Shown here: in pieces, positions 6,815-57,875 of the stretch | How positions within the stretch are numbered: the first letter of the stretch is position 1 | Layout of the letters: every line of letters starts with the position of its first letter | Assembly (NCBI RefSeq): GCF_023238445.1 | Contig: NZ_CP096658.1 | Span: 3,038,001 to 3,102,000 of the forward strand | Direction of reading: 5' to 3' | Source of the DNA: Halorussus gelatinilyticus | GTDB lineage: Archaea > Halobacteriota > Halobacteria > Halobacteriales > Haladaptataceae | Length of the DNA stretch: 64,000 nt | Made by a program: the position numbers and the translations under genes | Notes under the pieces: generated by a model | Seen by the model: the letters and a program-made list of their open reading frames with translations, nothing else | Databases searched by the model: none | Told to the model about the DNA's origin: nothing

Positions 6815-7006
6815 GTGTCTGACCATCGGCGTGCCGGAGTTCAGAGGTTCCGGATCATCCGCGGCCTCAACAGTGTAGACGGTCTCTTCACGAAGACGGG
6901 GAAGAACACGATTCGTCTCAGAACCAACGCCGACCAGGCGGAACTCCTTGACAACAGGGATCCGCCGGAGGTACTCATTCTAGCTCCGCGTCCGAAGGCA
7001 ATCTAA
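6815..7006 (+). CDS. Short hypothetical protein
   Basis: A 63-residue basic product from GTG 6815. The reason to keep it is a TTTTTA element at 6782-6787, about 28-33 bp upstream of the GTG, the spacing expected for a leaderless haloarchaeal gene. Its last ten codons are antisense to the end of the methylase gene. No family recognised, and it may be spurious. Confidence 0.3.
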   Translation: MSDHRRAGVQRFRIIRGLNSVDGLFTKTGKNTIRLRTNADQAELLDNRDPPEVLILAPRPKAI

Positions 7007-40007: not shown

Positions 40008-40009
40008 CC

Positions 40010-41959
40010 ATGGCAGATTCAGAGATGAAACGCGGTCTGGCGCAGGTGATGTATCGATTCGGTCCCAAGTCGCTGTTCGACTACGGGCGACGGGGACTGT
40101 CGATGAAAGTATCCCGTTGGGAGACCGACAAGGTCAGCTCGCTCGACGCGAACTACGTCGCGGAACAGATCGCCACTCACGCATCCAGCTTCCGGAACGA
40201 CGATGAGGACCCCTGGGTAGACCTCACGGTGGAGGACGTAGATTTCCGCCGACCGAACCGCGTCGTCGGATCGCTCTACCCCCTGACCATGTACTGTCAG
40301 AACCGGAGTTGCCACCGGGTCGTGAGTAAGAAAGAGCCCAGTCACTTCGTCTACACCAACGGGGAGTGTCCCGAGTGTGGTGGTGAACTCCGTCAACTGG
40401 CCTTCGTCCTTGTGCACGACTGCGGGAACATGATGTCGATCAATCCGCAACCCTGCAGTAACCCGGACCACGGATACGACCACATCTACCTCAACAAGCA
40501 GAACATCAACGACCCCCTCTCGTGGTACTTCTACTGTGGTGAGTGTGGCGACTTCTGTGGAAACATGTCGAAGCGGTGTACCAAGTGCCACAAGGAACGC
40601 GTGTACTTCCGTCCGATAGCGAGCAACTCCGTCTACTACTCCCAAGGCGACGTCCTCGTCAACCTTCCAATCGACCAACGATACAGCGACGACATTGAAT
40701 ACGGGGAGAGCTGGGCCCGCATACTGATGGCCGCCCACCTCGGTGACCTTGATGACGTCGTCGAAGAGGGGGGGAAGACCTACGAAGAACTCGGCCGGAT
40801 GACGACGGACGAACGCGACGCGAAACGCCGGGAGAAGCAGATAGAGGATCTGAAGGAGAAAGTGGGCGCAGAACAGGTTGAAAAGATGATCGAGAGTGGT
40901 GTGGATCTCGGAGACGTCTTCGACGTCGCGGAGGACACGATAAAGGGTTCGACGCGAGGAGAGGTCGTCGAAGAGAACCGCGAACGTGTCGAGCTCCCCT
41001 CTCAGCGAGGTGGCGATAGCGACGTAGATCAGGCGTACTCGACGCTCTCTCACGAACTCTTCACATACCTTCGCTCGACCCAGGGATACGAAGGGAACCT
41101 AGACGCTACGGATGGAATGGAACGGCAACCCACTCCTCTGTCCCTAGACGGTCTCTTGGAGCAGGAAGATTTCCTCGAATCGAACCCGGAGGCAGAGGTA
41201 TATCCGGAGAAACTCCAGAAAGTGAATATCGCGTCAGCGTGGGTCGTGGACAATCTCCCCCTGCTGAACTACACGTTCGGGTTCACACGCGACCGCCCCG
41301 AACGGTCGCGGACGGACCTACAGCCGTTCCCACATCCCCGGGGTGAGGACAGCACCCCCGTGTACGTTGACCAAACGCCATCAGAGGCCATCGTCCTCCA
41401 AGTGGACCGATCCGCCATTATTGAGTGGTTGGACGGGAAGGGCTCACTTCGCGGCGTCGAACGTCCCGACACAGACGATGAGAGTGACCTCAAAGAGTGG
41501 TTCTTGGAGAACGTGGACACCAACGAACTCCGTGACCACTACTCGCCCATCGAAGACGACCTCACACGGGAAGTGTACACGCTCCTCCACTCAATGAGCC
41601 ACGCGCTGATGCGGACGGCGAGCGGACAGTGTGGTCTCGACAGCAACAGCATCTCGGAGTACGTGATGCCGAGCATCCCGGCGATTTTCCTCTACGCGAG
41701 CAGCACCGAACATTTCTCCTTAGGAGGAATGCACACACTGTTCAAGACGAGGATTCATCCATGGGTAGACGAGACTATCGCGGACGTCCAGCAGTGCGTG
41801 TACGACCCCGTGTGTGAACACGAGGACGGTGCCTGCCACGCGTGCCTCCACATGAGTGAAGTCGCTTGCGAGAGTGCCAACGGGAACCTCGACCGCCGAT
41901 ATCTAGTCGGCGACGACAGAGGTCGAATACCCGCGTTCTGGGAGGCAGAATACGTGTGA
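40010..41959 (+). CDS. drmB: DrmB, DISARM DUF1998 protein
   Basis: A 649-residue partner of DrmA. Zinc-binding pairs are abundant in the first third (CQNRSC, CPECGGEL, CGECGDFCGN, CTKCHK). The DUF1998 region lies at about 525-640: LLHSMSHALMRTASGQCGLD, the FLYASSTEHFSLGGMHTLF stretch and the final cysteine cluster DPVCEHEDGACHACLH. AGGAGG at 39996-40001 is a good ribosome-binding site eight bases before ATG 40010, which is preferred to GTG 40004. The DrmC GTG overlaps its end. Confidence 0.88.
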   Translation: MADSEMKRGLAQVMYRFGPKSLFDYGRRGLSMKVSRWETDKVSSLDANYVAEQIATHASSFRNDDEDPWVDLTVEDVDFRRPNRVVGSLYPLTMYCQNRSCHRVVSKKEPSHFVYTNGECPECGGELRQLAFVLVHDCGNMMSINPQPCSNPDHGYDHIYLNKQNINDPLSWYFYCGECGDFCGNMSKRCTKCHKERVYFRPIASNSVYYSQGDVLVNLPIDQRYSDDIEYGESWARILMAAHLGDLDDVVEEGGKTYEELGRMTTDERDAKRREKQIEDLKEKVGAEQVEKMIESGVDLGDVFDVAEDTIKGSTRGEVVEENRERVELPSQRGGDSDVDQAYSTLSHELFTYLRSTQGYEGNLDATDGMERQPTPLSLDGLLEQEDFLESNPEAEVYPEKLQKVNIASAWVVDNLPLLNYTFGFTRDRPERSRTDLQPFPHPRGEDSTPVYVDQTPSEAIVLQVDRSAIIEWLDGKGSLRGVERPDTDDESDLKEWFLENVDTNELRDHYSPIEDDLTREVYTLLHSMSHALMRTASGQCGLDSNSISEYVMPSIPAIFLYASSTEHFSLGGMHTLFKTRIHPWVDETIADVQQCVYDPVCEHEDGACHACLHMSEVACESANGNLDRRYLVGDDRGRIPAFWEAEYV

Positions 41960-42843
41960 CCGACGACCACGACGCGATTTGTACGAACTTCGCGGTAGTC
42001 CGCCAGTTCGACGACTTGGACCGTGTCGTCGCTATCCGAGACACCATCTTGGCTCTTGATCACAGCGACGTAACTCGGGCCGACGTAGATCAAGGGTTAG
42101 AAACACCGTTAACCACCCGAGAAGCGTCTGCCCTTTTCACCTGTCTTCAGAAGAACGGAGCAGCAACTCAATCGGCGACCGACGAGCGGGGTTTTGCGGC
42201 CTACACTTTCGAGGTTGATCCCTTTGAAGCAGACCGAGTACTAACCCAGCAAGCCGCAGTGATTGCAGCAGACGGTCGTTCCCCCCAGACCGACCAGGAC
42301 GACGACGTCGAATTTGTGGCCACACTTCCGGGAGGATTCGAACCAACCTCCGCACAAGTCCGTTCCATTCCCGACATCGCCTCTACGATTCGCAACCAGG
42401 TGTTTGACGCCGATTCGTCGGTCCGGATCGCCAACCCGTACTTCGACCCATCACTTGAACTCGTGTCCGACCTTGCGAGTCTTCCTCAACGGGGTGTCGA
42501 GACACAACTACTGACCCGAGAAACCGCGGACGAGGAAGGCGATACACGAACGACGCTCAACAAGATGTGGGACTTGATCGACGAGGAACACCGTGACAAC
42601 TTTGAGGTGCGAGATCTCTACCGATGGGACGAGAAACAGGGATCCCAGGCGTTTGCGACTCACGCGAAGATCGTAATCGTTGACGAGAGGGTTTGCTACG
42701 TTGGAAGCGCAAACTTGACCGATACGAGTCTCTCGACTAACTTTGAATTCGGCGTCGTCGTCGAAGGTGACATCGTTGAGGAAGCCACGATGGTGTTCGA
42801 CGAAGTGTTCGAGTACTCATACCCAGTTGATTTGCCGATATAG
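41956..42843 (+). CDS. drmC: DrmC, phospholipase D-like DISARM protein
   Basis: A 295-residue protein with a single PLD HKD motif: HAKIVIVDERVCYVGSANLTD starting near residue 235. The N-terminal 100 residues are a helical wing typical of DrmC. In published DISARM systems DrmC is dispensable for defence in some cases. GTG 41956 overlaps the DrmB stop, so it is translationally coupled. The DISARM gene run on this strand breaks here; the methylase comes 6.3 kb later. Confidence 0.82.
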   Translation: MTDDHDAICTNFAVVRQFDDLDRVVAIRDTILALDHSDVTRADVDQGLETPLTTREASALFTCLQKNGAATQSATDERGFAAYTFEVDPFEADRVLTQQAAVIAADGRSPQTDQDDDVEFVATLPGGFEPTSAQVRSIPDIASTIRNQVFDADSSVRIANPYFDPSLELVSDLASLPQRGVETQLLTRETADEEGDTRTTLNKMWDLIDEEHRDNFEVRDLYRWDEKQGSQAFATHAKIVIVDERVCYVGSANLTDTSLSTNFEFGVVVEGDIVEEATMVFDEVFEYSYPVDLPI

Positions 42844-43592: not shown

Positions 43593-44600
43593 ATGCATCC
43601 GGACGCCCCACCGGACGAGTCTGACGTCCTCGAAAAAGTCGAGACTGCCCTGAAACAGGCAGTGAGAGATAACTCCGACCTAAACTGGGAGTACGGGACC
43701 CGGATCAAGCGACAGAAGTACACGTACCTTGCGGTTGAGCACTTCACCGATAGCGATGAGGCGTTCCCGGTCACGTATAGCTGGTACAAGTTCGGGGCCG
43801 TGATGCCAGCAGCTCCGAAATCGGGAACAGTCGGTCCGGCGAGCACGCAGATGCCAACACCGGATGCACGCGAGTCGGGCATATTCACGGTGGCTTTCGA
43901 CGACATCGTCGATTTCTTCCGACGGAGTGACTTCACACCCGGGTTAGACGAGGACTCGTGGTACGCGAGCGACCTCGACTTCCTGGAGGCATTCTACGAA
44001 TCGCACGCGCCAGAGGAGTATCGGGACTTGTACCTGGGGAACGTGGCTTTCCGACAGCACCTTGATTCTGCCTTGGAAGAGGTTCGGACGGCCCGGCGGG
44101 GATCCTCGGCAGATCGGTCTTCTCCGGTGTTCGGGACAGAGCGGTACGAGGATGTCGGGCGTGCTGCAGCTCGAATGCACCTCGGCTTGGTAGGTATCGA
44201 CTTCCTGAGTCAGACTCTCGACGAGGTCCGAGAGTTTACGAATCTAGTAGAGGACGCGTTTCTCGTCCTCAGTCAGACGTGTGCTTCAGAAGTCACGGAG
44301 TCACAGGTGGCCGCGCTGGAAGAACTGAAGCAGGTCTACAACGAGTGGATCTGGGAGTATCCCGCCCTTTTGATGTCGAAAGAGACCGCGAAGGGCCCGA
44401 ACGCCCCGACCTTGCGGAAGTGGTCTGCCCAGAAGCACTTCTCTGTGGAGGACAACCTACAGAAACACATCGACAGTGTTAGTCAATCGTGTGTGGATGT
44501 AGGTCTAGTTCCGAGCTCAGATCAGTACCCAGAACACGACGACGATGTGGAAACTATCGGTCGAGCAGTCGCGCTCCAGGCGATGCGTCGAGATGAGTGA
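43593..44600 (+). CDS. Unknown partner of a PIN protein inside the DISARM island
   Basis: A 335-residue acidic protein, no family recognised. The first 110 residues are beta-rich (WEYGTRIKRQKYTYLAVEHF) and the rest mainly helical (GRAAARMHLGLVGIDFLSQTLDEVREFTNLVEDAFLVL). Its stop overlaps the start of the PIN-domain gene by 8 nt, so the two form a coupled pair. By architecture it could be an antitoxin-like or targeting partner, but nothing in the sequence proves this. Confidence 0.55.
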   Translation: MHPDAPPDESDVLEKVETALKQAVRDNSDLNWEYGTRIKRQKYTYLAVEHFTDSDEAFPVTYSWYKFGAVMPAAPKSGTVGPASTQMPTPDARESGIFTVAFDDIVDFFRRSDFTPGLDEDSWYASDLDFLEAFYESHAPEEYRDLYLGNVAFRQHLDSALEEVRTARRGSSADRSSPVFGTERYEDVGRAAARMHLGLVGIDFLSQTLDEVREFTNLVEDAFLVLSQTCASEVTESQVAALEELKQVYNEWIWEYPALLMSKETAKGPNAPTLRKWSAQKHFSVEDNLQKHIDSVSQSCVDVGLVPSSDQYPEHDDDVETIGRAVALQAMRRDE

Positions 44601-45357
44601 AATTGTACCCGCAGCGGACGTAGAGGACGTATTCACCGATACCTGCGTGTTGTTCGCTTACGCTGTCGAAGGGGAGGCAGATGCAAGAAAGCTCTTCGAA
44701 GACTCCACCCTCGACAAAGTAGCCAGCGAGCGCATCAAACGTGAATTCGTCTCGGTAGCTGATCGGCACCAAGACATCCACCGCGAGCTTCTAGAGTTTG
44801 CTGCGACGGACGATCTGGACGAGTACGAGCCCACTGACCTGCACCAGAAGAACGACGTTCGGTACGTCATTGATCTATACTCCGACCTCACCGATATGGA
44901 CGATGTCGAAGTGGTTCGTCGATTGAACGAACTCATCAACCGGCTGGAGAAGGCGAGAGACGAACTCTTCGAAACCGATGGAGTTCTCACTATCCTGCCC
45001 CTTGATGGAGTTGACGCTCAGCTGGTTGGCCTGCTACGTGGTGTCGTCGAGAACGAAGACGATATCCGAGTTCTCTGTGATGCAGCCGCGTGGAGCCGGA
45101 ACGGCGGCTCGGGTACATTCCTCACCGAAGACACTGAAGACCTCTTGGGAAGCGACGAGGATGGAGGAAATGCTGTAGAAGGTGATGAAACGGGTGAGAG
45201 CGGTGATAGTCTCCCCGACTCCTTCGCGGATTTCTTGGGCTCAGAAAACAAGTCCGTACCGGAGCGAATCAACGACCAGATAGTAAGTCGCTACGACACG
45301 GACTCAGCGTTACAGATTCTCTCGATAGAGGATTTTCTCACTATCGAGGCTAAGTGA
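44593..45357 (+). CDS. PIN-domain-like nuclease protein
   Basis: A 254-residue protein from ATG 44593. The opening VFTDTCVLFAYAVEGEADARKLFED places D16 where the first PIN aspartate belongs; SERIKREF supplies a Glu, and IRVLCDAAAWSRNGG followed by TFLTEDTEDL the later acidic residues. A long acidic insertion lies near 200-220. PIN proteins are single-strand-specific RNases, often toxins or RNA-processing enzymes. The ATG overlaps the preceding gene by 8 nt; the next gene (module A) is convergent, 7 bp away. Confidence 0.6.
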   Translation: MSEIVPAADVEDVFTDTCVLFAYAVEGEADARKLFEDSTLDKVASERIKREFVSVADRHQDIHRELLEFAATDDLDEYEPTDLHQKNDVRYVIDLYSDLTDMDDVEVVRRLNELINRLEKARDELFETDGVLTILPLDGVDAQLVGLLRGVVENEDDIRVLCDAAAWSRNGGSGTFLTEDTEDLLGSDEDGGNAVEGDETGESGDSLPDSFADFLGSENKSVPERINDQIVSRYDTDSALQILSIEDFLTIEAK

Positions 45358-45364
45358 GAGGCCC

Positions 45365-46054
45365 TTACCGAGACTCAGCAACAATCTGTCTAATCATCTC
45401 TCGTGCCTCGTTCTCTGACAGTCCTTCGAGCTGCACGTTCGTCAGTGCGTGATTGAACCGCCGTGTCGTCTCGTCTATGACACGCGACGGTTCGTCTGCG
45501 AGTTCGTCACACATGGCTCGTACAGCGGGCTGGTAGCGCGCGAACCAGCGGTCGAACACCTTGTTGACCATCGTCTGGTTGGCAAAGACCGCGTCAGTCG
45601 TCGAATAATCGTCGCCACGCGAAGTGAGCTCCGCGATCCACCAGAGCCGGTGGATGGCGTTTGAGTACAAGTCGGAGCCCGCACCGAGGAACTTCTCTCT
45701 CATCGCCTCCTCGGAGCGATACTCCCAACGGTGCCGGACGAGATCGGGATACCGCACTACTGCCAGCCAGTGCCAGAGGCCTGGATCGCCGGCGGTTCGT
45801 CTTGTGACGTCGAGACCGCGGTGGATCTCTTCAGCGAGTGCGCCGTCTATAGCTGTGTCGTACTCGGGGTACTCCTCTAGCACCTGCTCTACCGCCGAGT
45901 CGATCCTGTCGAGATCGGCTGTCGGACGACCCGGCATGGGCTCAACGTACTCTGTCAGTTGTTCGTCGGTGATCGCCGCCTCGCCCTGCATGAACGATTC
46001 ACCAACGAGGCGACGTCCATCTTCGGTCAGTCGATGTAATTCTGTTTCGGTCAC
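45365..46054 (-). CDS. Module A gene 3: DUF6339-like protein
   Basis: A 229-residue protein with the signature GLWHWLAVVRYPDLVRHRW, then EKFLGAGSDLYSNAIHRLWW, of DUF6339-type proteins. It is clearly homologous to the product of 56612-57397 (GLWHYLCVVRFPEFVHYRW and EKFLKAGTDAYSNALHRIWW). GTG 46054 is one base after the stop of gene 2. No catalytic motif is evident. It is the last gene of a three-gene minus-strand operon with the GHKL ATPase, so it probably forms part of one complex. Confidence 0.72.
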   Translation of the reverse strand: MTETELHRLTEDGRRLVGESFMQGEAAITDEQLTEYVEPMPGRPTADLDRIDSAVEQVLEEYPEYDTAIDGALAEEIHRGLDVTRRTAGDPGLWHWLAVVRYPDLVRHRWEYRSEEAMREKFLGAGSDLYSNAIHRLWWIAELTSRGDDYSTTDAVFANQTMVNKVFDRWFARYQPAVRAMCDELADEPSRVIDETTRRFNHALTNVQLEGLSENEAREMIRQIVAESR

Positions 46055-46055
46055 G

Positions 46056-47093
46056 TTAGATCTGGAGGCCTTCCTCCATGAGATGGATCAGCTGCTCTCG
46101 GGGATCTATGTACTCCTGAAGTTCGCTATCGATTCGCTGCAATACGTGGGGAAGGGTTTGCGGGTCAGAGAGGTCGTCCTTGAGACGGTGCGTCGCTTCT
46201 GAAACGTCACTAGTTTTGTAGAGGTTACTAGCAAACGTCTGGAGCACCATCTCCTGCCACTCGTGTTCAACCTCGCCCTCTACGTCTACAGCACTCCCAG
46301 CACGAACAAGGAGTTGTACCCACACACCGTAGCTCACCTGGTCGAGTATCACGTCACGCATCCGCGCCTCGGCCCCGACAGATCCTCTACTCTGTAGTAC
46401 CTCGGCAATACGGGGATGATCGGAGTTGATCCACAACTTAGGACGACTCTCGTTCCGGAAGTCAAGGTAGTAGAGTTTGTTCCCATCCGGGAGGTGAGCG
46501 TTTTGTGAGAAACGCACTTGCTCACCGTCAATTGCGGCTCGCTCGTCGTCTTTGGGTCCATCAACGACGACGTAGTACAGCGTCCCACTGGCGACGCGGA
46601 AGTTCTTCTGGTTGGCGTACTCGTTCGAACCATCTCTCGGACGAGATTCGGTACGAACGAGATACGGACGAAGTTCGACCGTACCCCGGACAGTACTCTT
46701 CGGGACTTCTAGCGTTACGTCGTATTCCCCTGGAGTCGTAGGTGCCTCGGAGATGACGCCCCGATCACGGTAGATCGTCTCGTGGCAGCGAATAGTGACG
46801 TAGAGTTTGGCAGGGGGGCGTTCCCGTTCATCTTGTGGAAAGACCGCCTGAACCGTCTCCTCGGGTAGTCGAAGTTTACCGTTGAGAGTGATGGTCTCCC
46901 AGTCCGGATCGCCACTGCTGTCAGAAGACGACACTGCCGATGCGAGGTCTATCTCAGTCTGCCCTGGCTTCAGGTCAAGCGCTTTTCGATTCCCCTGGTC
47001 AACAGCGAAGGAGTCAAGTTCAAAGTCTACTCCTTCGTCTCGGTAACTGAACGGAAGTACCGTACTACGGTGTCGCTGGGAACGTCGGCTCAC
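46056..47093 (-). CDS. Module A gene 2: beta-rich protein with conserved C-terminal helices
   Basis: A 345-residue protein without a known family. The N-terminal half is rich in strands (FELDSFAVDQGN, WETITLNGKLRLPEETVQAVFP, GEYDVTLEVPKSTVRGTVEL). The C-terminal half has the conserved KLWINSDHPRIAEVLQSRG followed by VWVQLLVRAG. Both halves match the product of 55552-56622 (QLYLNREHPQVVEVLKNSG and VWTQLLMQTA). GTG 47093 follows the ATPase stop by two bases. It is found only between the ATPase and the DUF6339-like gene in both copies, so it is a core part of the module. Confidence 0.7.
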   Translation of the reverse strand: MSRRSQRHRSTVLPFSYRDEGVDFELDSFAVDQGNRKALDLKPGQTEIDLASAVSSSDSSGDPDWETITLNGKLRLPEETVQAVFPQDERERPPAKLYVTIRCHETIYRDRGVISEAPTTPGEYDVTLEVPKSTVRGTVELRPYLVRTESRPRDGSNEYANQKNFRVASGTLYYVVVDGPKDDERAAIDGEQVRFSQNAHLPDGNKLYYLDFRNESRPKLWINSDHPRIAEVLQSRGSVGAEARMRDVILDQVSYGVWVQLLVRAGSAVDVEGEVEHEWQEMVLQTFASNLYKTSDVSEATHRLKDDLSDPQTLPHVLQRIDSELQEYIDPREQLIHLMEEGLQI

Positions 47094-47095
47094 AC

Positions 47096-48994
47096 TTAGT
47101 CCTCCTCCGGTGTCTCCAACTCCGCGAGTATCTCTAGTTGCGTCGCGCCCACGTCACCGTGCACTAAGTCAGCGGCACCGTCTGAATGAGAACGACCAGT
47201 GAACGAGATGTCTCGAACGTTTTCGTCGGCGACCAGGTGAGCCCGTCCCTCGTCGTACGACACGGTTACGTCCGCTTGTTCGATCTCAAGGTGGTGGATA
47301 GGGATGTCGTCGTAACGGGATCCGTCCTCACCGACACCAGTGAGGGAGATGTCTGCACTCCACCCCTCGAACTCCTCTGGGAGCACTTCAATTCGACCCG
47401 AGATCGTCCACGCGTCGCCATCGTAGTGGGACGAGCTATCGATCTCGAAAACAGGGTCAGCAGGTGATGTCGTGGACCGTGGATTTCCGCTCCCGTGAAT
47501 CGGGAATCTGTTCAGAACGTTATCGGAGAGGGTGTCGCCGTTGCTTCCCTTCGAAATCAGGTGCCGAAGACCGTCACGCAGCGTTCCGAACATGTCGTCA
47601 AGTGCCGTCCGGAATCCACGCTGGTACTGCTCGCGGAGGTTCTCGGTGGATTCCCACTCGTCGTGCTCAGGCGGTTCGGCGAACCGCAGGAACCGGTCGA
47701 TCTCTCGGTCACTATCTGATGGGGACCCTTCCGACCGTGCTTCGCCGGCTGCTAGTACGCCGAAGAAGTTCCGATCACCGTAGGCGACACGACTCTGGTC
47801 GTAGTACTTGACCACCATCCCCGCACCCCGGAACAGCGCGACGTTATTCATGTACGTATCGTCGTCTGCAGGAGATGCGAGGCGAGCCGATAACCGTACC
47901 GAGCCGTCGGGTGTCTCGGTCCCATCGGCACGAGGCGGCAGATCGACCGGGATGCCGAGTCCGGCAACGTCTCTGGGGTCAACCAACGTCTGAGCGTCTG
48001 TAGTCCTCTCGTCGTAAGCCTCGACGAACGGTCGAATCGCCGGGACACTCTCGACGTCGGCCGTCATTGTCTCGTCGGGCGTTTCGACCGTGATTTCGAG
48101 GTCACCCCGATAGATCGCTGGCCAGAAGTACTTGACAGAGGCCTCAACGAACTCCTGTGCGAGGTCTTCGACGTCTGGTCGCTCGTCTCGCGTCGGGTCC
48201 TGAAACTCGACGACCATAGCGCTCGTCCCGCTAACAGCGGGCCGTTCCACGTGAAGTCGTTCTGCCAGCCTTGACGCCCTCTCACCCCAGAAGGACTCCG
48301 GGCGGGGGCCATCGTCCGTCTCGATAGGCTGGCAGAGCCACCCCGCACCTTGGTACGTCGTTTCGTCCTCCGGTAATTGGTGTGTGGGGAACTTAGAGCG
48401 GGCGATGAGTCGCGGGGAATCGTCTTCGCACTCTCTGTGTGCCAGATGTGAGTTAAAGACGACTGTCGAAGCGCCCGAGAACGTCCAGAGCACGGACTTA
48501 CCGAGGCCGTACGAGCCGCCGGCGGTGTCGTCTTGCTTGCTGCTGTAGAGTTCGTCTCGGACTAGCGCGGCGTAATTCGAGTCTTCGTCCCAACTTCCGG
48601 TCAAGCCGGTCGTGTTTCTGTCTTCGACGACGAGGAGGCGGAGTTCGGCATCGGGGTCGTTGACTCGTTCGACGACCCGTTCGTAGCGATGGCCATTATG
48701 TGTGTCTGCGACTGCTCGCATTCGTTCACCGAGTCCATCGTCCCAGCCGAGTCCGTCAAGGAAATCCTCTTTTTCGTCACCTGTGAGAGTTACGAAACGG
48801 AACGTCACTTCGACTGGATCGCCGTTTGGGAGGCCCTGATCGTTCGCGTTTTGGAGGACCTCACGGACGAACGCCTCGGAGTCGTGGTCAACGGCGTGTT
48901 TAGTGGGATCGTCGCCGTAACGTGGCGCTCCTGGCCCACCACTGAAGAAGAACCACTTGGCCGCTTCGTTGATTTGAACCTGCTCCTGATTCAT
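47096..48994 (-). CDS. Module A gene 1: GHKL (HSP90-like) ATPase
   Basis: From ATG 48994, a 632-residue protein with a GHKL ATP-binding fold. The N-box is FVREVLQNANDQG with E45, N49 and D52; the G1-type motif is LLVVEDRNTTGL; the G2 lid is DTAGGSYGLGKSVLW. After the ATPase domain come a transducer-like region and a beta-rich C-terminus. It is homologous along its length to the product of 53663-55552. GHKL ATPases act as ATP-driven clamps on DNA (MutL, MORC, gyrase B). It heads the module A operon, divergent from the cytosine methylase. Confidence 0.8.
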   Translation of the reverse strand: MNQEQVQINEAAKWFFFSGGPGAPRYGDDPTKHAVDHDSEAFVREVLQNANDQGLPNGDPVEVTFRFVTLTGDEKEDFLDGLGWDDGLGERMRAVADTHNGHRYERVVERVNDPDAELRLLVVEDRNTTGLTGSWDEDSNYAALVRDELYSSKQDDTAGGSYGLGKSVLWTFSGASTVVFNSHLAHRECEDDSPRLIARSKFPTHQLPEDETTYQGAGWLCQPIETDDGPRPESFWGERASRLAERLHVERPAVSGTSAMVVEFQDPTRDERPDVEDLAQEFVEASVKYFWPAIYRGDLEITVETPDETMTADVESVPAIRPFVEAYDERTTDAQTLVDPRDVAGLGIPVDLPPRADGTETPDGSVRLSARLASPADDDTYMNNVALFRGAGMVVKYYDQSRVAYGDRNFFGVLAAGEARSEGSPSDSDREIDRFLRFAEPPEHDEWESTENLREQYQRGFRTALDDMFGTLRDGLRHLISKGSNGDTLSDNVLNRFPIHGSGNPRSTTSPADPVFEIDSSSHYDGDAWTISGRIEVLPEEFEGWSADISLTGVGEDGSRYDDIPIHHLEIEQADVTVSYDEGRAHLVADENVRDISFTGRSHSDGAADLVHGDVGATQLEILAELETPEED

Positions 48995-49185
48995 GTGATA
49001 AACCGTTTGTTTGTACGGAACTGCGACCACATAGTTAGTATTACTGTTACGCGTCGATGAGCCCCGTTAGTCGGAACCGGCAGAGGTTCTAGTCAGGGAC
49101 ATCGCCGTACTTGTCGCGCGGTACGAGGTAGTCGGGACGATGTCGTTGCCGAACGTTTATGTGACGATACGCAGGAAAGGAGGTT

Positions 49186-50301
49186 ATGAAGGTAGCCGCA
49201 GTGGATCTGTTCTGCGGGGCCGGCGGACTCAGTTATGGCCTCCAGCAAGCCGGCGTCTCGGTCGTCGCAGGGATTGACCAAGATCCAGACTGTAAGTACC
49301 CGTACGAACAGAACATAGACGCCGAATACGTACGAGCAGACGTCCACGCGTTGGCACAGAACCCCGAACCAATCGCACAGATGTATCCATGGGATGCGGA
49401 TCTAAAGGTCCTCGCAGCATGCGCGCCTTGTCAACCGTACTCCACGATGGGACACTCAAAGGGAGATGGCCACGAGGACCATCAAAAATGGGGGCTGCTA
49501 AACGAGGTATCACGGATCGTAAAATACGTCGAACCGGACGTGGTCGTCACCGAAAACGTACTCCAAGTGAAACAGGAGGATGGCGTCTACGACGCGTTCG
49601 TCGAGAGCCTCGAATCCCAAGGTTACCACGTCAACAGCGACGATAACAAGAACGTCTACTGCCCCGAATACGGGATACCACAGAAGCGGAAGCGGTGGGT
49701 GGTCATGGCGTCCAAGCAGGGACCCCTCTCTTTGCCCGACCCTCCGATTCAGAACGAGAACGACTACCCGACGGTTGAAGACACGATTGATCACCTGCCA
49801 CCAATCGAAGCAGGAGAAGTTAGTGACGTGAACGACGTGCATAGAGCACGTTCTCTCTCGGAAAAGAACCTGGAGCGTATCGACAACATGGAACCCGGTG
49901 GAGACTGGACGCTCTGGGAAGAGCCAGACCTCAACCACCTCCTCGCAGACTGTCACCGGAAGGCGAGTGGACAGTCGTACAAGGCACCCTACAGCAGGAT
50001 GAGGCCCGACGAACCCTCTCCGACGATCACGACGCAGTTCTACAATTACGGGAGTGGTCGCTTTGGCCACTACGATACAGACCAAAATCGGGCACTCTCG
50101 ATCCTTGAGGGAGCACTGCTCCAGACGTTCCCGGAAGACTACGACTTCTACGACGAGTGGGAGGACGTCGGCGTGTCAAATCTGGGCCGGATGATCGGTA
50201 ACGCAGTCCCTCCGAAGCTCGGTGAGTACATGGGGAAGGCAATCCTCTCGCACGTCGGTGCGGCAGCGCCGTCTGTTGAGTCCACTGTCGCCGACGACTA
50301 A
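49186..50301 (+). CDS. drmMII: C5-cytosine DNA methyltransferase, probable DISARM methylase (DrmMII)
   Basis: A 371-residue C5 methylase. Motif I is VDLFCGAGGLSYGL (residues 6-19), catalytic motif IV APCQPYS with Cys82, ENV (123-125), QKRKR (166-170) and the late GNAVPPKLG near 338. The target-recognition region lies between about 185 and 310. In class 2 DISARM the methylase marks host DNA as self. It is separated from DrmC by the PIN pair and module A, so membership is inferred from its presence in the island. GTTTATG about 27-31 bp upstream supports ATG 49186. Confidence 0.85.
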   Translation: MKVAAVDLFCGAGGLSYGLQQAGVSVVAGIDQDPDCKYPYEQNIDAEYVRADVHALAQNPEPIAQMYPWDADLKVLAACAPCQPYSTMGHSKGDGHEDHQKWGLLNEVSRIVKYVEPDVVVTENVLQVKQEDGVYDAFVESLESQGYHVNSDDNKNVYCPEYGIPQKRKRWVVMASKQGPLSLPDPPIQNENDYPTVEDTIDHLPPIEAGEVSDVNDVHRARSLSEKNLERIDNMEPGGDWTLWEEPDLNHLLADCHRKASGQSYKAPYSRMRPDEPSPTITTQFYNYGSGRFGHYDTDQNRALSILEGALLQTFPEDYDFYDEWEDVGVSNLGRMIGNAVPPKLGEYMGKAILSHVGAAAPSVESTVADD

Positions 50302-50311
50302 GAGAGGACCT

Positions 50312-50938
50312 ATGTTGTCTAAAGCGGAGCGCCGATTTCAAGCAGACCTGCTAGAATGGGGGGAAGAGAACCGCCGCGAGTACCCTTGGCGAGAATCTGA
50401 CCGAACACTGTACGAGGTGTTTATAGCGGAGTTCTTCCTGACTCAGACGCCGGCTGACAACGTCGCAGCGGTCTATCCGAAGTTCCTGGAACGGTTCCCC
50501 ACGCTGGATGAGATATCGAAGGCCAGCGAGGACGAACTCATCGAAGCTATCGAGCCTCTCGGATTCCAAAACATGCGCGCAGGGGCGCTGAAGCAAATTT
50601 CCTCTGCACGTGACCACCTACCCACCGAGCCAGAATCGCTGATGGAGCTTCCGCGAGTGGGCCAGTACGTGGCGAACGCCACGTTGTGCTTTACCGGTGA
50701 TGACCGGTTGCCGGTACTTGATAGGAACGTGGAGAGGGTCTATAGTCGGGTATTTCGAGACACGTGGCCCGAGACAGAAGCGGATCAGCTGACGTTCACG
50801 CAGAGACTGGTACCTGACGAGGCCCGTGCATACAATCTCGCTCTGCTTGATTTCGGTGCTCTAGTCTGTCAGACTGAACCGCTATGTGAGCGATGTTTCG
50901 CCAACGAGTATTGTGTCTACTTCCAAGAATCAGCATAA
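50312..50938 (+). CDS. HhH-GPD DNA glycosylase, likely T:G mismatch repair partner of the methylase
   Basis: A 208-residue glycosylase of the Endo III/MutY family. The helix-hairpin-helix is LPRVGQYVANATL (113-125), the catalytic aspartate D137 is in PVLDRNVERVYSR, and the iron-sulfur cluster cysteines are C186, C192, C195 and C201 (one residue shorter than usual in the first spacing). The start is 10 bp after the methylase stop. The M.MthTI methylase is known to be accompanied by the Mig.Mth glycosylase, which repairs T:G mismatches made by deamination of 5-methylcytosine. The same logic applies here and makes this gene a functional analogue of Vsr. Confidence 0.82.
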   Translation: MLSKAERRFQADLLEWGEENRREYPWRESDRTLYEVFIAEFFLTQTPADNVAAVYPKFLERFPTLDEISKASEDELIEAIEPLGFQNMRAGALKQISSARDHLPTEPESLMELPRVGQYVANATLCFTGDDRLPVLDRNVERVYSRVFRDTWPETEADQLTFTQRLVPDEARAYNLALLDFGALVCQTEPLCERCFANEYCVYFQESA

Positions 50939-51157
50939 TATCGGCCTCTAACCATTGAATCCGTGCTCTATTCAAATATTCGCTGCAGTCACTGCGTAAG
51001 CCGGATCATGCTTGAGTACCGTTTTCAGATAGAAGTTTTAAACCGAGTCACTGTCTAAGCGCGTAACAGTGGCACTCTACGGGGACTCTACACAAGAATG
51101 CTCTAGGGGTTCTCTTAGTGGCCCTTGGAGCGCTGAACATGTATCAGGTGATCTCGA

Positions 51158-51931
51158 ATGACTTCGGATGAAGACACGACACGCGAAGAGCCGCTTATCC
51201 TCCACTGTTTCGCGGATTATGGGACGGAATCAGAGGTACTCAGCGACTTCGGGAACGTAATCCGTGTTGGAATCGGCCCTAAGGACACGAACCAAAGTAC
51301 GCCGGTTAAGGCAGACGCCCACATTAAGGACAAAGAGTGGGACCTCCCGATAAAGGACGGCGTCACGTTTGATCTCGGGGTGTTCCACCCGGTCTGTTCA
51401 CGGTGGGCCGCGACAACGAGCATCTCGGGAGATCCCGACGAGCACGAGAACATGATCCCGAGTGCACGGATACTCGCGGAGAAGTACTGCGACCACCACA
51501 TCATCGAAAACGTTCCGCGCGCACCGCTCAATGAGCCCGTCGTGTTGAACGGACGGATGTTCGGTATGCCAATTGAGTACGAGCGTGCGTTCGAGACTTC
51601 GTTCAATGTTCCGCAACCACCTCGTGAGAAACGACTCTTGACGACAGATGGACCGTCTGAGAAAGCCGAGACTTCGTCGTTCTTCTTCTCCGAACGGTCC
51701 AGAGAGTGGTGGGCGGCGGTCAAAAACTACTCACCGAGGCCGTATCCAAAGAGTCACATAGCGAAGAACGCAATTCCCGCGCCATTCATCTACTATCTGG
51801 TTCGGATGTGGTTGATGGTGTACGAGGACGAACACGGAATCTCGGAGGGGCGAGTGGACTACTCCGACTACGACGAGCGGATGGACACCAAGCGCAAAAG
51901 TGAGGACAATCGCCAGTTGGACGAATTCTGA
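51158..51931 (+). CDS. Reduced C5-methylase-like protein
   Basis: A 257-residue protein resembling the catalytic half of C5-cytosine methylases. The motif I region is degenerate (LILHCFADYGTESEVLSDFG), but a PVC catalytic-loop equivalent (FHPVCSRWA, C80) and an ENV motif (IIENVPRAPL, 117-119) followed by GRMFGMPIEYERAFE are clear. There is no room for a full target-recognition domain. Similar short proteins occur in phages. It may be a stand-alone methylase with relaxed specificity or an inactive regulator. It is 220 bp downstream of the glycosylase. Confidence 0.68.
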   Translation: MTSDEDTTREEPLILHCFADYGTESEVLSDFGNVIRVGIGPKDTNQSTPVKADAHIKDKEWDLPIKDGVTFDLGVFHPVCSRWAATTSISGDPDEHENMIPSARILAEKYCDHHIIENVPRAPLNEPVVLNGRMFGMPIEYERAFETSFNVPQPPREKRLLTTDGPSEKAETSSFFFSERSREWWAAVKNYSPRPYPKSHIAKNAIPAPFIYYLVRMWLMVYEDEHGISEGRVDYSDYDERMDTKRKSEDNRQLDEF

Positions 51932-51997
51932 TGTGCGACAAAACAGATATTTGATACGGACAAGTGGGTTCCAAGTTTCGGTAGGAGGTACAGTCTG

Positions 51998-53524
51998 ATG
52001 AGCGAGAACGAGTGTCACGTGTATCGGGATCGAGAGTCGAACTCGACGTACGTCGGGGATCCGTTCGTCGGTGTGCCCGTCTCCCGCGACATCGTTGAAG
52101 CCGTCGCCACTCAGTTCCACATAAAGGCTGATTCACTCGCTAGAGCTCTACGAGAAGTGCAAAATACGTCTGTGATTAACGTCGAAACCCTCTTTACGGG
52201 CTTTGACCCCCTCCCCGTCGGTCGAAGTGACGAGGGGCTGTTGTACGTGCTAGCCGAGGCAGACGGGTGTTGGGACACTGTAGCTGATCAAATCGGACTC
52301 ACAGAAGACGGCCGTGACGCCGTAGCGACCGCTCACGACCGTCAGGTCAGAGAGATGGTGGGAGACAGAGAAGTAAGAGGCGGTAGTGGGTTCGTCGTCT
52401 CGTGTTCGGAGTTCCCCGCAGACGCTATCGACGACATTGTAGCGGTGGTAGAAAAGACCAGACTGACGAATCGACAGGCGACGACGTGGATCCTCTCACA
52501 GTACGTCCCAGGCAGTGACGCAATCGCCCGAATACTCTCGATCCCCGAGTCAGTCGTGCAGTCGGAACTCGCCACAGTTGACCGGACTACGCGGCGGAGC
52601 GCAGCAGAGACACGAACTCTCGACGTCCCTGGACCACTCACTCGCCTTGAACCGGAACCTCAGTCCCCGACGTGGATGGGACTCGATTGGTCGAGGTGGT
52701 TCGACCTTCGAGACGGGAAAACGCTCCGTGAAGAACTGCCACGCCGTCCAGGTCTCTACAGAGTTCGACATACGGAACTCCCGGGTTTGATGTATGTAGG
52801 GGAATCGGGGTCGGAGGGAGGCGTTCGACAGCGAGTAGGGCTTGGCCTGTCAGCGGGATTAAGCGGATCGGATCGACAGACGGGAGATCCACATGGCGCG
52901 GCGCGTCCACTTCAGCAAATTACCGAGATAGCTGGGGGGAATATGGAAGTCTCTGTCACGACACCCCCGATATCGTCGAATCGGAGACACCGCCGCGCAA
53001 TTGAGGCGACTCTGGTGGCGGTTTGTCGTCGAGAGATTGGCTGGACTCCTATGGTCCAACTGAACCGAGAGCCTGCTGAGCACGTGAGCAGCCCTCACAG
53101 CGAGTTGCATCGGGAGCTAAGGAACATCGCAGAACGGTCCTCGTATTCCGTACCATCGTGGCAGCCATGGCGTGACGTGACTGCTCCACACTGGCTGGGA
53201 CTCAGCTGGACCGAGAGCCGTCCACTCTCTGAGCGAGACAAGATCGACAGTACTGGAGTATACGCGTTTCGACTGTGGCGGGAAGATCAAACGGGAGAAC
53301 GGTGGGGTCAAACAGTCCAAGAAATGGGGACGACTGGATCGATATCGAGTCGCCTGTTTAAATTGCAGAACGGGTATGGAGACGATATGCGTTTCTCCGT
53401 CGTCGCCCTTGATGGGCTGAGTACTGACACACAACGTCGGTCGCGTGAACTCCGTGAAGTCCGTCACGACATCATCGGCGCACACTACTTGGCCACTGGT
53501 ACCCTTCCAGAGGCACAGTTCTGA
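51998..53524 (+). CDS. Double GIY-YIG protein
   Basis: A 508-residue protein. After a helical N-terminal region, residues 225-357 form a GIY-YIG nuclease: PTWMGLDW, then PGLYRVRH, MYVGES (266-268 is YVG), conserved basic residues in VRQRVGLGL, E336 in RRAIEATL and QLNR. Residues 397-490 repeat the same layout (PHWLGLSW then STGVYAFRL, later GSISSRLFKL and SRELREVRHDI), but the YVG strand is replaced by WGQTVQEMG, so the second copy looks catalytically dead. It may be a DNA-binding or dimerisation half. Same strand as the methylase-like gene before and module B after it. Confidence 0.72.
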   Translation: MSENECHVYRDRESNSTYVGDPFVGVPVSRDIVEAVATQFHIKADSLARALREVQNTSVINVETLFTGFDPLPVGRSDEGLLYVLAEADGCWDTVADQIGLTEDGRDAVATAHDRQVREMVGDREVRGGSGFVVSCSEFPADAIDDIVAVVEKTRLTNRQATTWILSQYVPGSDAIARILSIPESVVQSELATVDRTTRRSAAETRTLDVPGPLTRLEPEPQSPTWMGLDWSRWFDLRDGKTLREELPRRPGLYRVRHTELPGLMYVGESGSEGGVRQRVGLGLSAGLSGSDRQTGDPHGAARPLQQITEIAGGNMEVSVTTPPISSNRRHRRAIEATLVAVCRREIGWTPMVQLNREPAEHVSSPHSELHRELRNIAERSSYSVPSWQPWRDVTAPHWLGLSWTESRPLSERDKIDSTGVYAFRLWREDQTGERWGQTVQEMGTTGSISSRLFKLQNGYGDDMRFSVVALDGLSTDTQRRSRELREVRHDIIGAHYLATGTLPEAQF

Positions 53525-53662
53525 CCTTGATCAAGGGACTACGCCAGCGACGTACCGCCCATATTTATGTCGACGGGGGAGCGTTGTGCCAATTATGAAT
53601 CGTAGCACACACTTCTACGACACGTCTGCAGCTATACCGGCTAGTGCCTGTGGGGGGTCGTG

Positions 53663-55552
53663 ATGAGCGGTCAGTGGGGATTCACCACGTCTCGACCGAC
53701 TGATGCTCGATACGGTGACGACGTCGCAAAGTACGCGATGTCGCACGGTGAACCCGGGTTGAAGACGTTCGTTCGGGAGGTACTGCAGAACTCGAACGAC
53801 GCACGGTTGGACAACGACCAACCGGCACGGGTCACGTTCAAACTGGAATCCTTACAGGGCGACGAGGCAATAGAGTACCTCAGAGCACTCGATATCGAGA
53901 CCTGGGCCGAGCACGCTAATTTAGCGTCAGACACGGAGAGCGGCAAGCACATCGCTGAGGCGATCAAACGCATAAAAGACGACGAGAAGATCCGTATTCT
54001 GACTATCGAGGACGAGAACACGGAAGGTCTCCTCGGTGAGGAGAACGCCGACGAATCAAATTTCACTGCGCTGGTCCGAGACGTTCTGTTCAGCAGCAAG
54101 TCGGGAGATACCGCCGGTGGGAGTTACGGTCTGGGGAAGGCCGTTCTCTGGCTGTACTCGGGCCTGTCACTCGTCATGTTCAACTCGACGCTGAGCGAGC
54201 CCAATCCAAAAGATCAATCCCCTCGATTGATCGGTCGAACGCGCTTGCCGACGCACAAGTCGGAGGACGGCGATACGGTGTACCAAGGACACGGTTGGTA
54301 CGGTGGTCTGAACGGCGACGAAGAGGGCGCGAGACCCGAGTCCATCTGGGGGGAAGAAGCCGAATCGATAGCGGAGGACCTCCAATTGAGCCGTCCAGAC
54401 GGTCCAGGAACGAGCATCCAAGTTGTGGACTTCCGTGTACCTACAGCGGAAGAGCGACTGGACGACGAGGAGTTAGCGGACCAGATTACGGAGATGGCAA
54501 TCGAGTGGTTCTGGCCCGCGATTTATCGTGGTGATCTGGAGGTAGCAGTCGAAGTGGAAGGTGAGTCAAAGCAAGCAAGTATCGACGAGTATCCGCAGTA
54601 CGAACCCTTCACGAACTGTCTAGACGACCGTGATGACTCGGTCAGTGAGCTGGATGAATCCGGAGATGTCGCGCAGGCCGCCATATCACTCGACGTACCC
54701 GAGAAGAGCGACGGCAGTGGCGGTGCGGATGGCCAACTCGGTTTGCTAGTTCGCCGTGCAAATACGGGTGAGTATCAGCATCGGAACGAGGTGGCGTTCG
54801 TCCGTGGTGCAGGAATGGTTGTTGAGTACTACGACCGAGACCGAGTCGTCGTCGGGAACCAGGACTTCCACGCCGTCCTCCTCGGTGGGCGCGCGAGACC
54901 TTGGGGAACCGATGAAAGTCCACAAGACGCAGATACTATCGTAGAGGAATTCTTGACCGCTGCGGAGCCACCCCAGCACGACGAGTGGGTGCGAACGGAG
55001 ACACTGGCGAACACCTACTCTCGGGGATTCCGGACCGCAGTAGAGGGCATCAAGTCTGACGTGACCGAGACATTACGGGGATTCGTCGCGCCCGACGTTG
55101 ACCGTGGCACGACTGGGCCTCAGCGTCTAGGAAACCGGTTCAAGATCGGAAACGAATCACGAGGTGGTCGCTCTGATCGTGAGTCACCCAGTAGTCAGCG
55201 TGTCACCGGAGACACGAACATCTCGTTCGACGATGTGTACACACACTGGTCGTTTAACGGCGAGGTGGAGCCCTTAAGCGACCGTAACGAGATACGAGCA
55301 GTCACCGTCTCCCTGATCCGGATGGCAGAGGAGAGAGCGACGTCGGATCGCCTTCCCGTACAGAACATCTCGTCGGATACGGCTGGAGTTTCGATATCAC
55401 TCCCGGAACAAAACGACGTCCAAGTGGGACGGCTAGAGCCGGCTCCTGGCACGTCAAAGATCTCCTTTGAGGGTGTCTCAATAGAGGATCACAGACAAGT
55501 CGAGACCAGATTGAAGGTGTCGGTTGACGTGGCAGAACGGAGGGACGAGTGA
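53663..55552 (+). CDS. Module B gene 1: GHKL (HSP90-like) ATPase
   Basis: A 629-residue ATPase homologous to module A gene 1. The N-box is FVREVLQNSNDAR (E39, N43, D46), G1 is ILTIEDENTEGL and the lid is DTAGGSYGLGKAVLW. The downstream WFWPAIYRGDLEVAVEV matches YFWPAIYRGDLEITVET in module A, and the middle region has the same FRGAGMVV/VRGAGMVVEYYD strand. A GTG at 53660 is the alternative start. The stop overlaps the gene 2 ATG by one base (TGATG). The two copies share motifs throughout but differ at many positions, so they are not recent duplicates. Confidence 0.8.
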   Translation: MSGQWGFTTSRPTDARYGDDVAKYAMSHGEPGLKTFVREVLQNSNDARLDNDQPARVTFKLESLQGDEAIEYLRALDIETWAEHANLASDTESGKHIAEAIKRIKDDEKIRILTIEDENTEGLLGEENADESNFTALVRDVLFSSKSGDTAGGSYGLGKAVLWLYSGLSLVMFNSTLSEPNPKDQSPRLIGRTRLPTHKSEDGDTVYQGHGWYGGLNGDEEGARPESIWGEEAESIAEDLQLSRPDGPGTSIQVVDFRVPTAEERLDDEELADQITEMAIEWFWPAIYRGDLEVAVEVEGESKQASIDEYPQYEPFTNCLDDRDDSVSELDESGDVAQAAISLDVPEKSDGSGGADGQLGLLVRRANTGEYQHRNEVAFVRGAGMVVEYYDRDRVVVGNQDFHAVLLGGRARPWGTDESPQDADTIVEEFLTAAEPPQHDEWVRTETLANTYSRGFRTAVEGIKSDVTETLRGFVAPDVDRGTTGPQRLGNRFKIGNESRGGRSDRESPSSQRVTGDTNISFDDVYTHWSFNGEVEPLSDRNEIRAVTVSLIRMAEERATSDRLPVQNISSDTAGVSISLPEQNDVQVGRLEPAPGTSKISFEGVSIEDHRQVETRLKVSVDVAERRDE

Positions 55553-56622
55553 TGGCGACTGTCAACGAGGAAGTTGAAGGAGCAGAGCCGGACGAAGAAG
55601 GAGAAGACGACGTCCAGACAGGTAGCTTAGTCAGCCAGTCCCTCCCGCATGAGTATCAAGAAGAAACGCTTGAATTCGACGTGGAATCATTCCGTCTAGA
55701 CGGAGCTCCGCTTGGTGATCGAGGAGACCTTGACGAGGACGACCAGTTTTTGTCGCTGGTGGACGAGGGTGACTGGGAGACTCTGGAGTTAGAAGGTACG
55801 GTTACCGTCGATCAGGATACTATTGAGGAAGTCTTCCCGTTTGATGAGTGGGAAGAGACGCCAGGTCGTCTCGCACTGGTGAAAGAGAATCCCCTCGCAA
55901 TGAGTCGAGACCGGCAGATACTCGCCGACTCTCCCTTGGATGGAGGGACCTACGAATTCACTCTGTGCATCAATCGAGACGACCACCGTGGACGAGTGAA
56001 GATCAAGCCGTTCCTCACTAGAACCGAGGAAGGCGAGTCTGGAGGATCGAAACACGCGTCCAAGGTTGGTGCACGAGTCGCTGACGGACTCTCGTGGGTC
56101 ATTCGACTTGACGAGAGTAAAGACGGTGGAAGTCTTCTCATGCCGATTATTGAGGACTTCAGCGACTACGACAGCTTCCCCGACGAGAGCCACATCCACT
56201 ATCTCAGCTTAGAGGCACCTCGGAACCCACAACTCTACTTGAACAGGGAACACCCACAGGTGGTCGAAGTGCTGAAGAACTCGGGAGCCACGGGTGGGCC
56301 ACCCCGATTGCGTGACGTACTCTACGACTACATTGAACACTCCGTCTGGACGCAGTTGCTGATGCAGACAGCACGCGACACAAGTCCCGACACCGGCGAA
56401 CCAGAGTACAGCTGGGAGGAAGACGTATTAGATATCTTCTTGGATGATTTGTATCCAGATCTCGGGGACGACGAGGCAGCGATCCAACTTGCCGAGGACG
56501 TTCGGAGCCACGTCGATATCCCAGATCTCGTCCAGCGGATCGAACGTACGGTACATCAGCAGTACGACATCCCATCCGACACGACGAATCTAATTGAGGA
56601 GGCGATCCAGAGTGACGACTGA
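55552..56622 (+). CDS. Module B gene 2: beta-rich protein
   Basis: A 356-residue homologue of module A gene 2. It keeps the strand-rich first half (WETLELEGTVTVDQDTIEEVFP, GTYEFTLCINRDDHRGRVKIKPFLTRTEE) and the C-terminal signature QLYLNREHPQVVEVLKNSG, VWTQLLMQTA. The N-terminus has a longer, very acidic leader. GTG 55549 is an alternative start; ATG 55552 overlaps the gene 1 stop. The last 11 nt overlap the gene 3 start. Confidence 0.7.
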   Translation: MATVNEEVEGAEPDEEGEDDVQTGSLVSQSLPHEYQEETLEFDVESFRLDGAPLGDRGDLDEDDQFLSLVDEGDWETLELEGTVTVDQDTIEEVFPFDEWEETPGRLALVKENPLAMSRDRQILADSPLDGGTYEFTLCINRDDHRGRVKIKPFLTRTEEGESGGSKHASKVGARVADGLSWVIRLDESKDGGSLLMPIIEDFSDYDSFPDESHIHYLSLEAPRNPQLYLNREHPQVVEVLKNSGATGGPPRLRDVLYDYIEHSVWTQLLMQTARDTSPDTGEPEYSWEEDVLDIFLDDLYPDLGDDEAAIQLAEDVRSHVDIPDLVQRIERTVHQQYDIPSDTTNLIEEAIQSDD

Positions 56623-57397
56623 GCTTCACCACCTGCAGAGTGCAGCCCACCCGATGATTGACACTCAATTCCTCGCGGGCGAGCGCGAGCTCACGGAGAA
56701 AGACCTTCGCCCGTACTTACAGCCGCTAGGTCGTTCCATAGATCTAAGTCCGGTAGACGAGCGGATTGAGGAAATCCGTGCGGACGACGACATTGACGCT
56801 TCGCTTATTGACGCCGAACTAGCGCCGACACTCCATCGCACCCTTGATTTGACACGTAACGAGGCAGCAGACGCTGGGCTGTGGCACTACCTTTGTGTCG
56901 TTCGGTTCCCTGAGTTCGTTCACTACCGGTGGGACCACGTCTTCAATCCGGAGAGTCCGGGTAACATGGAGGAGAAGTTCTTGAAGGCCGGAACGGACGC
57001 TTACTCCAACGCACTGCACCGGATCTGGTGGGGTGCCGAGCTCACCTACGAGGAAGGTGAATCGGGAGAAGTTGAGGATCGGGACTACAGTAGAACGAAG
57101 CGAGTCCTCGGTTTCCAAGAACTCGCCAATGACATCCTTGACCACGACTTTGCACGGTACATCCCAGTTACGCACGCCTGCGGTGATCTCCTCGGTCACG
57201 ACACATTAAACGAAATCAAGGACGAGGGTACGTACGACGACCCACCGTCAAACAGTAACATCGCAAGTCGAACGACGACGCTGCTCCGGGAGGAGCTGAC
57301 GGTTCGACGTGTGGAGATGATGGAGGAAGACGACATTGTGGAGACGATAAAGGAACTCCGTGACGACGTGATGCGTCGGGAGGCCGGCTGGTCGTAG
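56612..57397 (+). CDS. Module B gene 3: DUF6339-like protein
   Basis: A 261-residue homologue of module A gene 3, starting at GTG 56612 (MTTELHHLQSAAHPM, like MTETELHRLTEDGRR in module A). The shared core is GLWHYLCVVRFPEFVHYRW then EKFLKAGTDAYSNALHRIWWGAELT. An acidic insertion (EEGESGEVEDRDY) makes it longer than copy A. It ends the module B operon. A truncated HNH gene follows after 58 bp. Confidence 0.72.
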   Translation: MTTELHHLQSAAHPMIDTQFLAGERELTEKDLRPYLQPLGRSIDLSPVDERIEEIRADDDIDASLIDAELAPTLHRTLDLTRNEAADAGLWHYLCVVRFPEFVHYRWDHVFNPESPGNMEEKFLKAGTDAYSNALHRIWWGAELTYEEGESGEVEDRDYSRTKRVLGFQELANDILDHDFARYIPVTHACGDLLGHDTLNEIKDEGTYDDPPSNSNIASRTTTLLREELTVRRVEMMEEDDIVETIKELRDDVMRREAGWS

Positions 57398-57455: not shown

Positions 57456-57875
57456 GTGAGCGATGCTGGGATGCGTGCTGGGACGTACGAAGCGACTGTC
57501 CACGCTCGCTCGGTTGATCCGGAGTTCCGTGCGACGGTGCTGTCCCGTCATGACCGAACGTGCCCGGTTTCTGGGGTGGATCATCCCGGACTATTGGACG
57601 TGGCGCATGTCCTGTCATGGAGTGACTATCCAGAACACAGGGCCGATCTCTCGAACGTGCTGGCGCTCAGTAAGACGCATCACGCGGCATTCGACCGAGA
57701 ACTGTTCACGATTGACCAAGATTACCGGCTGTGCGTGAATCCGAGCTTCGAGACTCAGAGTGATGTGCTCCAACGGACGATTATCGACCGTGAGGGAGAA
57801 CGTATCTCGATTCCAGATGATAGCTTGAAGCCACAGTACGTTGCGCAGCACAACGCGGCGCTTGAGTGGGTGTGA
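57456..57875 (+). pseudogene. 5'-truncated HNH endonuclease at the island edge
   Basis: The 139-residue product from GTG 57456 is the C-terminal HNH domain of the same family as the protein at 14220: LLDVAHVLSWSDYPEHRADLSNV, then ALSKTHHAAFDRELF and DYRLCVNPSFE. Upstream the frame reads EEWADSDWTPSV in the style of the family linker, back to a TAG at 57420-57422, and no front domain is left. The gene therefore seems to have lost its 5' part, probably when module B arrived. It could still make a bare HNH domain. Confidence 0.6.

Follow-up and report, generated by a model that had tools for sequence, protein, structure and literature searches.

In a 64,000-nucleotide stretch of the Halorussus gelatinilyticus genome (NZ_CP096658.1, positions 3,038,001 to 3,102,000 of the forward strand; hereafter the window) two three-gene modules, A and B, flank a C5 cytosine methylase beside the genes of the defence system DISARM. 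Each module encodes a GHKL ATPase, a beta-sandwich protein and a DUF6339 protein, and we give an even chance to the reading that the modules serve a 5-methylcytosine restriction system as its MutL-like ATP clamp, which in haloarchaea would be hetero-paired and would work with interchangeable nucleases and helicases. The locus has a clear anatomy: the three genes of a module stay together, the A module is coupled to the methylase, and the whole is separable from DISARM.

Two old paralogous modules

Module A is carried on the minus strand as A1 (ATPase, 47096..48994), A2 (beta protein, 46056..47093) and A3 (DUF6339, 45365..46054), and module B on the plus strand as B1 (53663..55552, alternative start 53660), B2 (55549..56622) and B3 (about 56612..57397, open frame from 56594). 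The gene order is the same in both and all six genes are intact, at the places and on the strands assigned to them around the methylase in a first-pass annotation. The start of A1 at 48994 also stands; the open frame extends to 49030, but the alignment shows that the homologous methionine begins the relatives. Compared by BLASTP, the pairs share 40% identity for A1 and B1 (584 columns, E 3e-138), 31% for A2 and B2 (339 columns, E 6e-53) and 37% for A3 and B3 (249 columns, E 1e-46). Since the identities are only 31-40%, the modules must be paralogous and old, and together with the separate clades of the two ATPases these values rule out the recent duplication that the annotation had already rejected.

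Both third genes score above the Pfam cut-off for DUF6339 (PF19866; 2.9e-20 for A3 and 1.7e-17 for B3) and match the PADLOC model PDC-M33C (1e-13 and 8e-14), while no significant Pfam family match was obtained for the ATPases or the beta proteins, an NCBIfam scan found nothing, and a PDB sequence search gave no relatives for any of the three module proteins. The ATPases are called GHKL because of their invariant motifs (E40, N44, D47, G154, G157, G159, G250 and T251), their match to PADLOC PDC-M33A (5e-22 for A1 and 2e-35 for B1) and a topoisomerase VI-B-like model. In this model of B1 (mean predicted local distance difference test score, pLDDT, 81) the GHKL and transducer parts are followed by an additional beta domain at the C-terminus, and the six PDB structures that match it best are without exception topoisomerase VI-B (E 2e-8 to 5e-7). 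An EPPxHDxW motif, in which E436 and H440 form an ExxxH in the C-terminal part of S5, is likewise invariant. As both motif sets are complete in A1 and B1, neither looks like a dead copy. The AlphaFold model of A2 (mean pLDDT 85) consists of an N-terminal beta-sandwich and a C-terminal helical domain.

The distribution was analyzed in 392 genomes of the order Halobacteriales. DUF6339 is present in 27 of them, and a separate search with an ATPase profile recovered the identical 27 genomes. In the regions fetched from these, modules are complete in 56 of 56 cases with the same gene order, and no ATPase was found outside a module among the 392 genomes, so that the alternative of an ATPase living mostly alone is not borne out. 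The stops and starts overlap or nearly touch, as had been noticed in the window, with spacings of -17 to +5 bases between genes 1 and 2 and mostly -134 to +3 bases between genes 2 and 3 across the 56 modules. At least two modules, and up to four, are found in 23 of the 27 genomes; the four with a single module are G057, G151, G175 (a fragmented draft) and G268. The remaining listed genomes of Halorussus hold no modules, and the closest copies sit on plasmids of Halomicrobium urmianum (95%) and Halobacterium sp. DL1 (93%), which is why we regard the island as mobile. A search of viral contigs gave no match, and the phage records gave one unannotated 6-kb contig. In 10 other sampled genomes both A and B types surround the same methylase and GIY-YIG genes, and the arrangement is therefore not due to chance.

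A methylase cassette separable from DISARM

The C5 methylase (49186..50301, plus strand; Pfam PF00145 2.4e-49) is labelled DrmMII by PADLOC (846 bits). It is divided from A1 by the divergent promoter region 48995..49185, and the spacing is mostly about 190 bp among the loci. In the alignment 11 loci retain the block TTAGTATTAcTGTTacG, whereas the central part of the spacer has drifted, and the block is possibly a shared operator. Clade A modules occur in 22 genomes, every one head-to-head with a C5 methylase (22/22). The evolutionary distances of A1 in these 22 loci correlate with those of the methylase (r=0.98), and with A2 (0.98), A3 (0.93), the glycosylase (0.92) and the second methylase-like gene (0.86) described below. 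Furthermore, the module-adjacent methylases form one clade (Shimodaira-Hasegawa-like approximate likelihood ratio test support 99), in which DISARM-positive and DISARM-negative loci are intermixed.

The DISARM core lies upstream on the plus strand and consists of drmE (33630..36095; PADLOC DrmE 1620 bits), the helicase gene drmA (36300..40007; DrmA 2874 bits), the DUF1998 gene drmB (40004..41959; DrmB 1555 bits) and the PLD-type nuclease gene drmC (41956..42843; DrmC 627 bits), the last in an open frame from 41866 in which the profile begins at residue 31. Counting a DrmA as close to that of the window at 1500 bits or more, such helicases are present in 19 genomes, 14 of which also carry modules (Fisher p 1e-14). 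This association is what would be expected if the modules were accessory DISARM subunits feeding or regulating DrmAB, and a Myxococcota locus (L182) whose module, DrmA and DrmB genes look like a single operon points the same way. On the other side, no DrmA hit was obtained in 13 of the 27 module genomes, five DISARM genomes lack a module, and the cassette and DrmA have discordant histories, which makes an accessory role improbable. The narrower proposal that the modules are DISARM subunits only is ruled out by the 13 genomes without DrmA and the discordance. DISARM is thus an optional neighbour of the module cassette, present in 14 of 27 module genomes; the first-pass term "DISARM island" has to be corrected on this point, and also because the methylase goes with the cassette.

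The discordance was quantified in the 12 loci having both DrmA and an A module, where A1 and the methylase correlate with r=0.992 and DrmA and DrmB with r=0.997, as against r=0.442 for the methylase and DrmA. Two genomes illustrate swaps in opposite directions: G098 is 96% identical to the window in DrmA, 72% in the methylase and 68% in A1, and the corresponding values for G169 are 49%, 89% and 87%. In module-free DISARM loci (G040, G119 and G218) a methylase of its own clade comes straight after drmC, and this post-drmC methylase is absent from the module-bearing loci. Because it tracks A1 and not DrmA, the "DrmMII" of the window belongs to the cassette and not to the DISARM core. It is plausible that DISARM also uses the cassette methylase; DrmAB shows higher activity when DNA is unmethylated (PMC9142583), which makes a shared 5-methylcytosine mark coherent.

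The methylase is followed on the plus strand by a HhH-GPD glycosylase gene (50312..50938; Pfam PF00730), a usual member of the cassette, whose PDB matches are MutY and 1kea, a "G-T mismatches repair enzyme"; it likely repairs deaminated 5-methylcytosine. The short C5-methylase-like protein (51158..51931, plus strand) has 19 homologues that keep HP.C..W and EN.P, and neither a Pfam family nor an evident target-recognition domain was seen in it. Its gene also occurs in loci with A+C, A+D or A alone and so is not the partner of B. In the GIY-YIG nuclease-like protein (51998..53524, plus strand), behind whose gene the B modules lie, G252, Y254, Y266, G268, R277, R279 and E336 are conserved across 10 homologues; the core retains the catalytic Arg and Glu positions, and there was no Pfam hit.

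Two loci with D and E modules (G310 and G378) as well as G268 and G175 carry, in or beside the cassette, a protein of up to 678 residues (L081:16176-18212) that has matches among the type II restriction enzymes of PADLOC and appears GHKL-like by eye in its N-terminal half. It is possibly a MORC-nuclease partner.

The interval between drmC and module A holds genes for a 335-residue protein (43593..44600) and its 270-residue companion (44545..45357), both on the plus strand and without a Pfam or NCBIfam match. The pair is kept at the same position in 6 DISARM-bearing loci and was not found in DISARM-free cassettes. Further defence-like genes in the window (6975-9278, 24472-25851, 27440-28495, 57456-57875 and 60758-63238) encode an Eco57I-type N6 methylase, a PD-(D/E)XK protein and HNH proteins, as well as one large protein that bears a weak likeness to ZacB.

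Pairing of the modules and the putative clamp

In the ATPase tree clade A has 22 members, B 11, C 6, D 8 and E 4, with five others. Not one genome carries two modules of the same clade, against 6.8 such pairs expected (none of 20000 shuffles was as low). Modules within one genome are thus non-redundant. Clade A is present in 21 of the 23 multi-module genomes, a level that shuffles reach in 5e-5 of cases, and its partners are B, C, D, D+E and others, across several distinct lineages. The strict one-per-clade pattern supports complementary modules and suggests a heteromeric clamp with one constant and one variable half. Of the "heteromeric or dual-specificity machine" proposed in the first-pass annotation it is therefore the first part that gains; dual specificity has less support, since there is often just one full-length methylase in a locus with two or three modules.

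MLH1 is one constant subunit with several alternative partners, and the pairing pattern of the modules is alike. In our proposal the two modules, the C5 methylase, the glycosylase, the second methylase-like protein and the GIY-YIG protein would form one mobile restriction-modification cassette, in which each module would be an ATP-driven clamp of the MutL or topoisomerase VI-B kind with two dedicated subunits, the beta-sandwich protein and the DUF6339 protein. The methylase would mark host DNA. The clamp complexes would combine the invariant A module with at least one variable partner (B, C, D or E) in the manner of MLH1, close on unmarked DNA and loop it in the way that MutL works for MutH or Vsr. 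A partner nuclease or helicase might then be recruited or activated, in this locus the GIY-YIG protein, DrmAB(C) or both, with the cassette presumably docking on the drmE-A-B-C core of this genome and providing its methylase. The more specific version, in which a MutL-alpha-like heteromer combines constant A with exchangeable target or effector modules and an independent cassette has lent its methylase to DISARM, we hold tentatively, at somewhat less than even chances. In its passages on these operons, a 2008 paper by Iyer, Abhiman and Aravind (PMC2292703) proposed that MORC and paraMORC ATPases loop the DNA from recognition to cleavage site in a MutL-like way, and the linkage of relatives of the module to MutH/Sau3AI and Vsr fits this directly.

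These relatives are bacterial, and there the module is single-copy, in 12 of 12 Myxococcota genomes searched through DUF6339 and in 7 of 7 Planctomycetota genomes searched through the ATPase. It stands beside a Z1 helicase, a DUF4420 PD-(D/E)XK protein and a methylase, beside an AlwI-family enzyme, Vsr and a methylase, beside MutH/Sau3AI and Dcm, or beside a helicase and a GIY-YIG protein. The constant is the module plus, usually, a methylase, and the nuclease or helicase is exchangeable; Vsr in the bacterial loci has the same likely role as the haloarchaeal glycosylase, repair of deaminated 5-methylcytosine. The Myxococcota locus with DrmA and DrmB (L182:1751-18437) has UvrD, a Z1 helicase, the ATPase, the beta protein, DUF6339, DrmA and DrmB in a row, together with a divergent methylase and a glycosylase, and links MZA-like and DISARM-like parts in a bacterium.

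The single-copy state in bacteria would suit two independent restriction-modification specificities in one island, each module having its own methylase and target and not cooperating. So would the position of B behind the GIY-YIG gene with A facing the methylase, and the eight loci in which a further complete methylase, belonging to a different clade, lies near a module of type C, D or B. In most A+B loci, though, two or three modules go with a single full-length C5 methylase, the second methylase-like gene is not tied to B, and A is nearly always among the modules of a multi-module genome, so we consider such independence unlikely, if the least unlikely of the alternatives to a paired clamp.

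Several observations weigh against a nuclease-coupled hetero-paired clamp. The pairing counts are not independent, because transfer has spread many of the A+B loci as near-copies, and G057 carries an A module alone. A Synechococcus module operon is accompanied by a methylase alone, showing that no nuclease is universal, and some haloarchaeal loci have no obvious nuclease either. The fold search with the beta protein returned weak UNC119/PDE6D-like sandwiches and mostly unnamed viral proteins, with no clear structural relative. The want of a universally linked nuclease, together with the topoisomerase VI-B kind of fold, would favour modules that do not lead to DNA cutting and that instead trap foreign unmethylated DNA, compact it or silence it like Wadjet or the eukaryotic MORCs, for which compaction of DNA is described in the relevant passages of PMC8277788. 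Given the frequent linkage to GIY-YIG, AlwI, MutH/Sau3AI, DUF4420 or PLD nucleases we find this the least probable explanation of those considered.

Comparison with known systems

The first-pass annotation knew of no named defence system with this composition, which is partly wrong: the three-gene module is already catalogued in PADLOC 2.0.0 as the candidate PDC-M33, and the gene order is the same. The Ligilactobacillus salivarius version matches the A, B and C models. PDC-M33A matches both haloarchaeal ATPases (99% for the profile against the L. salivarius ATPase, E 3e-18) and PDC-M33C, or DUF6339, both third proteins, whereas the middle protein has no PADLOC hit to PDC-M33B and aligns weakly with L. 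salivarius B by hhalign (14% probability, E 0.002, 74 columns). The haloarchaeal modules differ in being doubled and hetero-paired. No paper naming PDC-M33 or DUF6339 was found in the literature searched, and the catalogue entry hereby gains a concrete anatomy and partners in bacteria and archaea.

Judged from its sequence the module ATPase also fits paraMORC2, GHKL ATPases of restriction-modification systems for which the passages concerned in PMC2292703 give the same GHKL and S5 architecture with a conserved ExxxH in S5, and linkage to C5 methylases, Vsr and superfamily II helicases. Those passages do not describe the fixed pair of beta and DUF6339 proteins, linkage to DISARM or paired paralogues. 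The 18-year-old prediction that GHKL ATPases serve restriction by looping DNA in the manner of MutL becomes directly testable in genetically tractable haloarchaea. MutL, MutL-alpha and topoisomerase VI-B have the GHKL and transducer fold in common with the ATPase model, but the sequence of the ATPase matches neither MutL nor HATPase families, and the likeness is one of mechanism and not of membership. MZA (mzaABCDE) is approached by the bacterial loci where the ATPase has MzaC-like Z1 helicases and MzaD-like DUF4420 proteins as neighbours; the window ATPase matches PDC-M33A and not the Mza models, and no Mza hits (Z1, DUF4420) were obtained among the 20 window proteins scanned between 33.6 and 63.2 kb.

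Within the literature searched, the identification of PDC-M33 with paraMORC2, the strict hetero-pairing in haloarchaea, the independence of the cassette from DISARM and the assignment of the methylase to the cassette are new. All components of class 2 DISARM (drmE, drmA, drmB, drmC and drmMII) are matched here by PADLOC, the difference being that the methylase follows the module cassette instead of DrmAB. A gene used to define archaeal DISARM is thereby assigned to another system and, if this is true, part of archaeal "class 2 DISARM" would be a composite of two systems.

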